The notes beneath the pieces are model-generated. The model saw only the letters and a list, made by a program, of their open reading frames with translations. It ran no database searches and was not told the DNA's origin. The translations under genes were made by a program, and so were the position numbers. This document shows, one piece after another, positions 4,239-9,413 of a DNA stretch of 31,374 bases. The stretch comes from a virus. The stretch covers positions 1 to 31,374 of IMG/VR virus record IMGVR_UViG_3300021373_003163; one strand, written 5' to 3'. Numbering within the stretch: the first letter of the stretch is position 1; every line of letters starts with the position of its first letter.

Positions 4239-5281
4239 CCGGCGCCCGATGGATTGAAGACGCACGCGCGCTGACCGTCGCCGAGGCCGCCCGGCTGCTC
4301 GGCGTGACGACCGCCCGATCCGGGATGGCGTGCCCCGCGTGTCAGGCCGCCCGGCGAGGCAAACGGGACAAGCGCCCGCCCGCGACATTCGGCGCGCGGG
4401 GCTGGCGTTGCTGGAGCTGCTCGGCGGCGGGCGATGCCCTGGATCTGGTCAGCTATTCCCTGACCGGGCGCAAGCTCAGCGCCGACCACGCCCAGCAGAC
4501 CACCGTCCGCGCGTGGCTGGTCGATCAGGGCATCACAGCCGCCCACGCCCAGCCCAGCCGCCCACGATTGCGCGCGATACCCGCCGAGCCGCCGCCGTCC
4601 GATGATTGGCCCGAGCGCGGCGAGGTTGATCGATTCTGGGCGGCGTGTCGCCCGGTCGCTGACGATCCGGCGTGTCTGGCGTGGCTGACTCGGCGCTATG
4701 GCGAGCACGCGGGGCGGATCGTCGCGCTGCTGGATCACCTCAGCGCGGCGAGGTCTATTCCCACGACCACAGCGGCGCGGTTTGCTCGATTCGGCGGGCG
4801 CCGCTGGAGCGAGGCCGGCTATCGGCTGGTTTTCCCCCTATCCGACGCCGACGGGCAGATCCGGAGCGTCCGCGCGCGCGATGTCAGCATCCGCGCCGAC
4901 AATCGCCAGCCTAAAGCAGTCCCGGCGACGGGTTACGGGTGTCGCGGCTTGATCCTGGCGTGCGATCGGGCTCGGGCGATGCTCAGCGGGGCGCCGCTCC
5001 CGGCGAGCTGGCCGCCGGGCCGGTTGCCTCGCGTTACGGTTGTCGAGGGCGAGACGGATTGGATGGCGTGGCTCAGCCGCCGTCATACAGTGACCGATCC
5101 CGCCCTGATTGGCGTCTATTCTGGCGGCTGGATTCACGACCACGCCGCCGCCCTTCCTCACGGCACGATCTTGACCGTCCGAACGGACGACAACGCCGCC
5201 GGCCATCGGTACGCCGAGGGCATCGCGCGGACAATCGAACAGCGCCGCGATCTCACCCTTCTCAGAGCAGGTATCCAGTGA
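4235..5281 (+). CDS. DnaG-like primase with zinc ribbon and TOPRIM domain
   Basis: This 348-residue protein would make RNA primers for DNA synthesis. A zinc ribbon is formed by C33, C36, C59 and C62 (CPAC, then CWSC), followed by GDALDLV, as in CHC2-type primase N-termini but with four cysteines. A TOPRIM core shows VVEGETD at 269-275 and RTDDNAAG at 316-323, giving the acidic metal-binding residues. It is shorter than a bacterial DnaG and has no fused helicase. The start overlaps the helicase stop (ATGA) and its own stop overlaps the next start (GTGA), so the three replication genes are probably translationally coupled. Confidence 0.88.
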   Translation: MTGARWIEDARALTVAEAARLLGVTTARSGMACPACQAARRGKRDKRPPATFGARGWRCWSCSAAGDALDLVSYSLTGRKLSADHAQQTTVRAWLVDQGITAAHAQPSRPRLRAIPAEPPPSDDWPERGEVDRFWAACRPVADDPACLAWLTRRYGEHAGRIVALLDHLSAARSIPTTTAARFARFGGRRWSEAGYRLVFPLSDADGQIRSVRARDVSIRADNRQPKAVPATGYGCRGLILACDRARAMLSGAPLPASWPPGRLPRVTVVEGETDWMAWLSRRHTVTDPALIGVYSGGWIHDHAAALPHGTILTVRTDDNAAGHRYAEGIARTIEQRRDLTLLRAGIQ

Positions 5282-6864: not shown

Positions 6865-6893
6865 CCGCCGAGCTGCTGGAGGTTGAATAAATA

Positions 6894-6930
6894 AAGCGAT
6901 ATCGGTTTGCACGATAAACCGATATCGCTT
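6894..6930 (+). terminator. Perfect 15-bp hairpin after the replication operon
   Basis: AAGCGATATCGGTTT (6894-6908) pairs with AAACCGATATCGCTT (6916-6930) around GCACGAT. It lies 29 bases after the DUF3987 stop and is followed by AATCTATTTG, a weak T-rich tail. It is likely to end or attenuate the replication transcript. Confidence 0.7.
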
Positions 6931-6936
6931 AATCTA

Positions 6937-6962
6937 TTTGTGCGGGACGGAAACCGCACAAA
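6937..6962 (+). promoter_or_regulatory. Second hairpin, upstream of the small-gene group
   Basis: TTTGTGCGG (6937-6945) pairs with CCGCACAAA (6954-6962) around GACGGAAA. It directly precedes the shared ribosome-binding leader of the next gene and may protect the 5' end or affect its translation. Confidence 0.45.
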
Positions 6963-6980
6963 CGCACACAGGAACACACA

Positions 6981-7268
6981 ATGACCGACACAATCGCAGA
7001 CCAGATCGCCGACCGATTCGACAACGACGGCGAAAACTTTCTTGATGATAACGACAACTGGATCACGGAGGTGCTTGACCGCGCCGCCGTGGGCGTTGAC
7101 ACCCACCGGGACAGCACAATTTACACCCTCAAGGATTTCAGCATGATCGCGGTGAACGACTCCTTCTGGGACACCTTGACGCTTCGCGACGGCGCCGAGG
7201 GCTGGGGACTGTACGGCTCCTCCGGCGATCTGTACGTCCGCACAGACTCCCGTGGTGTGATCGACTGA
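6981..7268 (+). CDS. Small acidic protein of unknown function
   Basis: A 95-residue, strongly acidic protein (DNDGENFLDDNDNW) starts at 6981 behind the GCACACAGGA leader. No motif, membrane segment or known family is seen. The C-terminal half (DTLTLRDGAEGWGLYGSSGD) looks like beta structure. Acidic early phage proteins are often host-takeover factors or DNA mimics, but nothing here proves that. Confidence 0.7.
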   Translation: MTDTIADQIADRFDNDGENFLDDNDNWITEVLDRAAVGVDTHRDSTIYTLKDFSMIAVNDSFWDTLTLRDGAEGWGLYGSSGDLYVRTDSRGVID

Positions 7269-7286
7269 TCCACCATCGACTGATCC
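7260..7286 (+). repeat. Short direct repeat around the stop codon
   Basis: ATCGACTGATCC occurs at 7260-7271, including the stop of the preceding gene, and again at 7275-7286. It lies just upstream of the ribozyme. A C-rich hairpin (CCCCG 7286-7290 with CGGGG 7296-7300) follows and could compete with the outer part of ribozyme stem III. Confidence 0.5.
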
Positions 7287-7296
7287 CCCGCCCTCC

Positions 7297-7358
7297 GGGG
7301 CATGGTCTGGCGCTGTCGCTGCGTCACTGATGAGCCCGCAGCAGGGCGAAACCAACCC
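7297..7358 (+). ncRNA. Hammerhead-type self-cleaving ribozyme (type III arrangement)
   Basis: All conserved core elements are present in order. UGG plus U at 7303-7306 pairs with A plus CCA at 7351-7354 to form stem III. The cleavage trinucleotide GUC is at 7305-7307. Stem I is TGGCGC (7308-7313) with GCGTCA (7321-7326), one G-U pair and a 7-base loop. Next come CTGATGA at 7327-7333, stem II GCCC (7334-7337) with GGGC (7344-7347) around GCAGCA, and GAAA at 7348-7351. Stem III can extend with GGG (7298-7300) and CCC (7356-7358) across a small bulge. Cleavage is predicted after C7307, leaving the downstream mRNA with its ribosome site (TGGAG at about 7362) and the ATG at 7375. Hammerheads are known from phage genomes; activity here is inferred from the motif. 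Confidence 0.85.
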
Positions 7359-7374
7359 ACCTGGAGCACACACC

Positions 7375-7668
7375 ATGATTCTACCCGTCGCACTGTACAC
7401 CACTACCATCGGCCCAACCGGCCAGCAGGTCTCTGATGGCTGGCTCTCGGCTGGCACCGAGATTCGAGACATCGACGCCACCATTGGCGGCTCTGACATC
7501 ACCGTCACCATCACCATCGGCGGCGGGCTCGCTCCCGAGCAGGTCCGCATGACACCCGCAGAGCTGGCCACATTTGCCGGCCATGTAGCGTTTGAGGATT
7601 CCGCCGCTGCTGACTACCTCCAGCACACCGCAGAGCAGGCCGCTGAGGAAATGGGATGGCAGGCGTGA
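7375..7668 (+). CDS. Protein of unknown function downstream of the ribozyme
   Basis: This 97-residue protein starts at 7375 behind TGGAGCACACACC. An in-frame ATG at 7330 lies inside the ribozyme core and lacks a ribosome site. The protein is predicted to be beta-rich at the start (SDITVTITIGGGL) and has a helical acidic C-terminus (QHTAEQAAEEMGWQA). No family is recognised. Its 5' untranslated region carries the hammerhead, so its message is expected to be cut from the upstream gene. Confidence 0.7.
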   Translation: MILPVALYTTTIGPTGQQVSDGWLSAGTEIRDIDATIGGSDITVTITIGGGLAPEQVRMTPAELATFAGHVAFEDSAAADYLQHTAEQAAEEMGWQA

Positions 7669-8280: not shown

Positions 8281-8959
8281 CGCCGGGATCGTTCGCCTCG
8301 GCGGCAAGAACTACCACACCGTAGCGAAGCGGATCGGCGACTTCCGAGCAGCTCACCCGATTGACGCCGGCTGGGCGGTCGTGACCGATCCCGTGACGGT
8401 CACAGACGAGATCGTGATGTTTCGCGCCGCGATTGTCGATCCCGAGGGCCGAACCGTCGCCGTCGGATACGCCGAAGAGCGCCGCACAAAAGGGCGCGGA
8501 GTCAATGCGACTTCCGCGCTGGAGAACTGCGAATCGAGCGCGATCGGAAGGTGCCTCGCCGCTGCTGGATACGTCGGCTCGGGATCGTATGCATCCGCCG
8601 ATGAAGTGATCGCGGCTCGGGCTCGCCGCGCCGTGCTGGAGGCCGCGCCGAGCTCCACAGCGCCGACGGCGCCCGCCGAGCCGCCGCCGGTCGTGGTCGG
8701 GCCGGATAGCCCTGGCGGCGTGCCGGTGCCGGAGGAATACAGCGAAGAGCACGATCCGAGCTGGGCCGGCGAGCGTGTCGGATTCTGTACCGCGATCCAG
8801 CGCGACACCGGCACCGGCTACGACGCCCTTACCGCGTGGCTGGAGGGCCACGGATTCCCACGCCCGAGCCACGCGCCGAGGGCCTGGCGGGCTGATCTGT
8901 ACAAGTGGCTGAAGTACGGCGGCGGGGCGGCTACAGTCGCCGAGCAGGCCGCGACATGA
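8264..8959 (+). CDS. Putative single-strand annealing or ssDNA-associated protein (ERF/Rad52-like)
   Basis: A 231-residue protein starts at 8264 behind GCACACAGGAG; an earlier in-frame ATG at 8216 has no such leader. The N-terminal domain contains FRAAHPIDAGWAVVTD, FRAAIVDPEGRTVAVGYAEE and NATSALENCESSAIGRCLAA with AGYVGSGSYASADE. The last part resembles the SALENAETSAIGRAL signature of ERF-type and similar phage annealing proteins. A Pro-rich linker follows, then a small C-terminal domain (TGYDALTAWLEGHGFPRP). It would act in phage recombination or replication, in line with the RusA-like resolvase on the other strand. Family placement is from pattern memory only. Confidence 0.55.
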   Translation: MTRQNDAGIVRLGGKNYHTVAKRIGDFRAAHPIDAGWAVVTDPVTVTDEIVMFRAAIVDPEGRTVAVGYAEERRTKGRGVNATSALENCESSAIGRCLAAAGYVGSGSYASADEVIAARARRAVLEAAPSSTAPTAPAEPPPVVVGPDSPGGVPVPEEYSEEHDPSWAGERVGFCTAIQRDTGTGYDALTAWLEGHGFPRPSHAPRAWRADLYKWLKYGGGAATVAEQAAT

Positions 8960-9219
8960 CGCCAGCGGCGCGGCGGATCGGCGAGCTGCTGAGCCGGGAG
9001 CGGCTCGCCGCTGGCTATACCGTCGGCGAGCTCGCCGCGCTGGCGTTTGTCGAGCGGCGCGAGATCCGCCAGCGCGCCGACGGCGAGCATTTCGGCGCAC
9101 CTCGGCGAACCGTCGCGCTGATCCGGCTGTGCCGCGCCAGCTATGGCACGCTGGAGCACGCCGAGGCCCTCGCGCTGTCTATCCACCGTCAGCGCGTGAG
9201 CAGTCGCGGCGACGGGTAG
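8956..9219 (+). CDS. Small Xre-like helix-turn-helix protein
   Basis: An 87-residue protein whose ATG overlaps the preceding stop (ATGA). RRIGELLSRERLAAGYTVGE and LAALAFVERREIRQRADGEH suggest a degenerate Xre-type domain, followed by a helical tail. Its 3' end overlaps the last 31 bases of the opposite-strand repressor-like gene. Regulator function is inferred. Confidence 0.6.
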   Translation: MTPAARRIGELLSRERLAAGYTVGELAALAFVERREIRQRADGEHFGAPRRTVALIRLCRASYGTLEHAEALALSIHRQRVSSRGDG

Positions 9220-9413
9220 ACAGTGATCGGCACTTGAAGCACGTCCACGATCCGCTGTAGCGTGTCAGCAGACATGCCCGCGCCCGATTCGATGTTGTGG
9301 ACGTGGGATTGGCTGAGCCCGGTTTTTTTCGCCAGCCTATAGCCGCTGATCCCCTGTTCCGACCTTGCTTTTACGATTTGCTCGCCAATACTGGCGGGCT
9401 TTTTATTTGTCAT
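9189..9413 (-). CDS. Xre-family repressor-like protein on the opposite strand
   Basis: This 74-residue protein reads against all other early genes. It contains a textbook HTH: IGEQIVKARSEQGISGYRLA, then KKTGLSQSHVHNIESGAGMS and ADTLQRIVDVLQVP. Its DNA is less GC-rich than its neighbours. It faces the rightward gene at 9472 across a 58-base interval with a promoter-like sequence, an arrangement like the CI/Cro region of temperate phages. It overlaps the previous gene tail-to-tail by 31 bases. With no integrase in view, it could be an immunity repressor of a non-integrating phage or an early-to-late switch. Confidence 0.8.
   Translation of the reverse strand: MTNKKPASIGEQIVKARSEQGISGYRLAKKTGLSQSHVHNIESGAGMSADTLQRIVDVLQVPITVYPSPRLLTR

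Follow-up and report, generated by a model that had tools for sequence, protein, structure and literature searches.

A candidate RNA-processing cassette between two small phage genes: a GC-rich hairpin beside a predicted type III hammerhead ribozyme

What does a hammerhead ribozyme do for a phage when it lies between two of its genes? The role of bacterial and phage hammerheads has been described as an open question (PMC6155905). We took it up at one locus of a virus record (IMG/VR, IMGVR_UViG_3300021373_003163) whose whole 31,374-nt stretch, here called the window, encodes a phage terminase, portal and helicase. The hammerhead ribozyme (HHR) is placed between two co-directional phage genes, at 6981-7268 and 7375-7668, with a short GC-rich hairpin just ahead of it. 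Our reading, which we consider probable, is that positions 7286-7354 form an RNA-processing cassette, a 3'-guard hairpin plus a type III HHR, that would split an early transcript in two. Its elements and surroundings are as follows.

6981-7268, + strand: upstream small gene, 95 aa (open reading frame with Shine-Dalgarno sequence; stop codon 7266-7268)
7286-7300, + strand: GC-rich hairpin CCCCG-CCCUC-CGGGG, ending 7 nt before the predicted cut, without a U-tract; proposed to guard the upstream message at its 3' end
7303-7306, + strand: stem III, 5' strand UGGU, 4 bp with ACCA 7351-7354 (RF00008 alignment, phage model, covariation)
7307, + strand: C17; self-cleavage predicted on its 3' side (7307/7308) from its position in the conserved GUC/core
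7308-7326, + strand: stem I hairpin, arms 7308-7313/7321-7326, 6 bp including G7310-U7324, loop UGUCGCU
7318-7320 (GCU) with 7340-7342 (AGC), + strand: putative loop I-loop II kissing contact, 3-bp Watson-Crick (covariation)
7327-7333, + strand: catalytic core CUGAUGA, invariant in the phage HHR alignment
7334-7347, + strand: stem II hairpin, arms 7334-7337/7344-7347 (GCCC/GGGC), 4 bp, loop GCAGCA
7348-7350, + strand: catalytic core GAA, invariant in the phage HHR alignment
7351-7354, + strand: stem III, 3' strand ACCA (phage covariance model; covariation)
7363-7366, + strand: Shine-Dalgarno GGAG of the downstream gene, just 3' of the ribozyme
7375-7668, + strand: downstream small gene, 97 aa (open reading frame inside the listed 7330-7668)

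Inspection of the sequence revealed a complete type III HHR at 7303-7354 on the + strand with all core bases present. An earlier note on this DNA had described a full hammerhead core and three correctly paired stems, including a G-U pair in stem I and a four-pair stem II; all of this was confirmed. In the RF00008 alignment stem III is open and stems I and II are closed by loops. By its structure the element is a real type III hammerhead, and its self-cutting is predicted. The core alignment also bears out the cut position that had been proposed, predicted at 7307/7308, 67 nt upstream of the ATG at 7375, and self-cleavage after C7307 is very likely. Exactly one match to a type III descriptor was found in the window, compared with none in 300 dinucleotide shuffles (both strands). 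With types I-III all searched, the window holds this one HHR and no several-HHR array. Minimum free energy (MFE) folding was rejected as evidence for the HHR, as the z-score of about -0.4 is not significant and the MFE picks another fold (-31.1 kcal/mol, versus -25.2 kcal/mol for hairpin plus HHR, with tertiary contacts lying outside the folding model).

The earlier note had also named the Rfam models as a check, with a missing hit above threshold counting against the ribozyme. At the gathering cut-off the Rfam scan did return no match for the window HHR, but below it the type III family RF00008 aligns end to end, at 30.4 bits against a gathering cut-off of 48.5. With 4227 families searched, the E value is 7e-5 when 250 nt are scanned and 0.0089 for the full window. 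A phage covariance model trained on 21 other hammerheads from phages, neither the window nor its nearest relative being among them, scored the window HHR at 64.8 bits (E 3.9e-18) and matched nothing else in the whole window. When 12 loci rich in type III HHRs were scanned, none of their type III HHRs passed the RF00008 cut-off, and the sole matches were two type II sites in L022. Because no type III HHR in these rich loci passes, the weak part of the failed Rfam check is the RF00008 type III threshold; this cut-off misses phage hammerheads of the window kind. The window HHR shares with RF00008 type III the conserved core, the open stem III, the closed stems I and II, the GUC and a loop-loop contact, and is unlike it in scoring under the gathering cut-off, in its short stem II (4 bp) and in its 3-bp Watson-Crick kissing contact.

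Relatives gathered by pattern scans of IMG/VR provided many phage contigs with the same ribozyme, and 23 sequences sharing stem-loop lengths were used for covariation. Standard pairs fill 98.5% of the pair cells of this alignment, and in 12 of the 17 pairs both partners have changed. Stems I, II and III and the kissing contact all covary, and the signal is lost when partners are slid by one to three columns. One pair of the kissing contact appears as GC, CG, AU and GU, and another as CG, UA, GC and UG. The covariation points to a loop I-loop II contact in type III phage HHRs.

Conservation around the locus bears on which gene the element serves. In the nearest relative, L011, orthologs of the upstream and downstream genes are 83% and 70% identical, and the conserved block starts at the hairpin and includes all of stem III. 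Within this 69-nt cassette the two phages differ at five positions, every one in a loop and outside the kissing bases; were the substitutions placed anywhere, the chance of all of them falling in loops would be small (p about 2e-4). In L011 the hairpin and ribozyme stand before the upstream-gene ortholog and after an unrelated gene, one gene further upstream than in the window, and the downstream-gene ortholog has an ordinary short leader with no HHR directly upstream. A further downstream-gene ortholog (L025, 67% identical) has no ribozyme there. In L082, two near-identical copies of hairpin plus ribozyme occur 227 nt apart around a short ORF, and their hairpin arms differ solely by pairing-preserving changes. 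Given the shift in L011, the double copy in L082 and the absence in L025, these comparisons indicate that hairpin and ribozyme are a unit that is not tied to one gene. Identical hammerheads at this spacing are found at L082:10180 and 10407 and at L089:3186 and 3413; such pairs might conceivably set free a small, defined RNA, possibly circular.

A role tied to the downstream gene, as the earlier note had framed it, did not hold up against the cassette position in L011, the ribozyme-free L025 gene and the diversity of downstream genes. Genes downstream of other phage HHRs mostly lack a PHROG match and include a few ATPases; anti-restriction proteins account for 2 of 88. A gene-specific role was rejected more broadly, with upstream and downstream genes mostly matching no PHROG and sharing no family. 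In the window itself, neither the upstream nor the downstream gene has a PHROG or Pfam match, and searches against cultured phages matched neither the HHR region at the DNA level nor the downstream gene at the protein level.

We turn to the hairpin. The C-rich hairpin that had been noticed at 7286-7300 is real, and its tail, CAUGGUC, lacks the U-tract of an intrinsic terminator. The hairpin pattern was first seen in the upstream flanks of most loci and was tested afterwards. At 75 independent sites, folding was at background except in the segment ending exactly at stem III, where the mean MFE was -7.4 kcal/mol versus about -3.5 kcal/mol elsewhere. By a first hairpin definition, 33 of 36 gene-following sites had the hairpin versus 6 of 39 others. 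In a held-out set of 37 further independent sites, fetched later with another pattern, this definition gave 17/25 versus 4/12 (p=0.077), and an energy-based hairpin call with a wider gene rule gave 24/29 versus 2/8 (p=0.004). A greedy gene caller, which misplaced genes, weakened the contrast (p 0.002 and 0.12); the longest-ORF rule is reported beside it.

The final set comprised 103 cleaned phage type III sites from about 100 phage contigs, 67 of them gene-following and 36 not, with redundancy removed by shared 12-mers only; a hairpin was called at -8 kcal/mol or better when ending within 5 nt of the ribozyme. Such an abutting hairpin was present at 51/67 gene-following but 6/36 other type III HHRs (p=6e-9), a result that depends on these definitions and comes from a non-random sample, the contigs having been chosen by motif patterns, many being fragments and the gene calls being simple. 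As a control, gene junctions without a ribozyme were examined in the same contigs at matched positions, and 57 of 425 had a hairpin (p=3e-25). The suggestion that the HHR separates messages is upheld, and the hairpin tracks the presence of an upstream gene. Within HHR arrays, a 3'-end hairpin accompanied 59 of 69 later HHRs versus 22 of 36 of the 5'-most ones. A scan of genome contigs gave seven loci; two have independent type III HHRs by the descriptor, neither in a clear hairpin cassette. The hairpin-less type III HHRs of L052, L062, L094 and L100 have in common, immediately ahead of them, a similar stretch of the form GTGAAGCGGCAA...AAGTGTC, a conserved leader of another kind.

Types I and II provided a comparison for which the prediction was made before the test: they should need no extra hairpin, because their 5' product ends in the closed stem III plus one base. 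A descriptor search of the same contigs yielded 65 type II and 48 type I matches, with none in shuffled sequence; the gene-following sites left once these were clustered number 41 for type II and 23 for type I. Three first-pass 'type III' matches fitted type II too, and the final set assigns dual-fit sites to type II. The median gap from stop codon to ribozyme was 1-2 nt for types I and II versus 29 nt for type III (p=4e-15). An additional hairpin next to the ribozyme was found at 10 of 64 type I/II sites (p=2e-12 versus type III). Stem III of types I and II is strong, often with a UUCG-type loop. At gene-following sites a strong hairpin would stand at the end of the upstream product for 56/67 type III, 38/41 type II and 18/23 type I HHRs; since the descriptor of types I and II itself partly requires a hairpin, the informative features there are the strength of this hairpin and the absent extra one. 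Eleven of the 67 gene-following type III HHRs have no strong hairpin at the 5'-product end, and 7 of 36 type III sites lacking a close upstream gene have one. Dense arrays separate consecutive small genes in L057, L165, L176, L073, L127 and L153; L057 carries eight hammerheads in one contig, most directly after a gene, and some array contigs mix types I, II and III.

These data suggest a rule for all topologies, to which we give slightly better than even chances: after cutting by an HHR between phage genes, the 3' end of the upstream message would carry a GC-rich hairpin a few nucleotides away from the cut, which types I and II supply through their own closed stem III and type III through an added hairpin, in one cassette. 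Ribozymes would thus replace terminators, yielding hairpin-capped single-gene messages while leaving transcription unstopped.

For the window, the mechanism that we envisage begins with a transcript through 6981-7668, in which the hammerhead would fold through stems I-III and the kissing contact between loops I and II and would cut itself after C7307. Splitting of the message in this way is likely. The upstream message would then end in the hairpin and a 7-nt tail with a 2',3'-cyclic phosphate, a capped end of the same shape as one made by a terminator, and the hairpin would shield it from 3'-to-5' exonucleases. We lean towards such protection, by analogy, because of the malE-malF precedent, in which an intergenic structure guards the upstream message after cleavage within the operon (PMC5927463). 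The downstream message would carry a 5'-OH and a 67-nt leader in which the hairpins of stems I and II and the Shine-Dalgarno sequence lie. In this manner a single promoter would serve two genes whose messages have lifetimes of their own. Where decay runs 5'-to-3' (RNase J), a guard at the 3' end would be less important.

Several other explanations have to be weighed against this one. The HHR might act mainly on the downstream gene, trimming its leader and leaving a 5'-OH that alters stability or translation, with the hairpin incidental or a leftover terminator. The distance from cut to start codon is indeed narrow among phage type III HHRs (median 69 nt, quartiles 65-77), about one third of these HHRs have no close upstream gene and would affect only a leader, and transcript 5' ends of haloviruses HF1/HF2 have been mapped to the cut of an HHR that directly precedes a helicase gene (PMC3088659). 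However, such a role leaves unexplained why the abutting hairpin occurs mainly where a gene lies upstream and is absent in types I and II; moreover, the downstream genes are not conserved, and the window's downstream gene is present in L011 and L025 with no HHR immediately ahead of it. We regard it as unlikely. That the hairpin instead serves ribozyme folding or regulation, by insulating it from upstream RNA and ribosomes or by competing with stem III to set the cleavage rate, is more doubtful still. The hairpin adjoins stem III, and the stem III strand of the window could be tied up if 7278-7281 joined 7304-7307 in an extended pairing. Yet the competition that the earlier note had proposed finds little footing: hairpin and stem III do not overlap in the window, and across phages the hairpin region pairs with the 3' end of the 5' product to no greater extent than swapped tails do, 30 of 200 swaps being as high. 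Invasion of the stem III strand by the hairpin was rejected on this ground, as no general pairing with this strand emerged from tail-swapping. In addition, type III HHRs with no upstream gene mostly lack the hairpin, and types I and II lie within 0-4 nt of stop codons, uninsulated.

It is very improbable that the hairpin is a plain terminator of the upstream gene and that the ribozyme belongs to a separate downstream transcript. Terminator-like loops are seen (UUCG is common), and a few loci (L048, L053, L146) have true U-tracts, but a run of four T occurs in just 1 of 56 hairpin tails of phage type III HHRs, and a scanner calls a terminator at 6894-6930 and none at 7286. For these two reasons the hairpins adjoining type III HHRs are not ordinary terminators. 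The hairpin also abuts the ribozyme rather than the stop codon, and a promoter has no room before stem III. If the hammerhead had decayed or become inactive and served no function today, this would accord with the patchy presence, two downstream-gene orthologs having no HHR there, and with the Rfam score under the gathering cut-off. Against this stand the intact core, the full phage-model score, the pairing kept across phages and the confinement of the L011 substitutions to loops, and we consider decay very improbable too. Cleavage that splits the message beside a guarding hairpin remains our preferred reading.

How does the proposed cassette relate to known systems? The glmS ribozyme is a self-cleaving RNA in a bacterial leader that leaves a 5'-OH product, needs a metabolite and regulates one gene. 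The window HHR resembles it as a predicted self-cleaving leader RNA with a 5'-OH product, and differs in that no ligand is indicated and an upstream gene is involved. As at malE-malF, a hairpin without termination activity would guard the cleaved upstream message, but there cellular nucleases cut, whereas here a built-in ribozyme would cut at a fixed distance (PMC5927463). Perreault et al. (2011) reported clustered bacterial and prophage HHRs that cleave in vitro and in E. coli, in arrays where often, though not always, several HHRs flank the genes of one transcript, and proposed processing of polycistronic phage RNA (PMC3088659). The window is like the Agrobacterium tumefaciens ardA array of that study in that HHRs lie between small phage genes and presumably process polycistronic RNA; in ardA-type prophage arrays, stem I-stem II pseudoknots were described, and anti-restriction genes occur there as here (PMC3088659). 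Unlike the ardA array, the window has a single type III HHR and a hairpin next to it. No terminator is named in the main text of that paper, where the word 'hairpin' occurs twice, neither time for such a structure (PMC3088659).

Message processing itself was thus proposed in 2011; what may be new here, with priority uncertain, is the hairpin beside type III HHRs and the topology rule, of which we found no mention in the open-access papers searched. With the hairpin rule, a loose notion of processing becomes something definite to look for, namely an upstream message whose 3' end is capped, and the cassette of hairpin and HHR would be a ready-made part for operon splitting.

Other features of the window were observed in passing. 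At 1600-1878, two 85-nt arms, 88% complementary and 109 nt apart, form a long imperfect hairpin with sub-threshold microRNA-precursor matches in Rfam. A long inverted repeat at 6886-6963, terminator-like on both strands (6894-6930) and followed by a 9-bp hairpin (6937-6962), directly precedes the gene at 6981, and L011 has a similar layout of different sequence at about 5030-5110. Small ORFs at 8905-9219 and 9189-9413 overlap on opposite strands, and the latter, judged from its sequence, resembles an XRE-type regulator.
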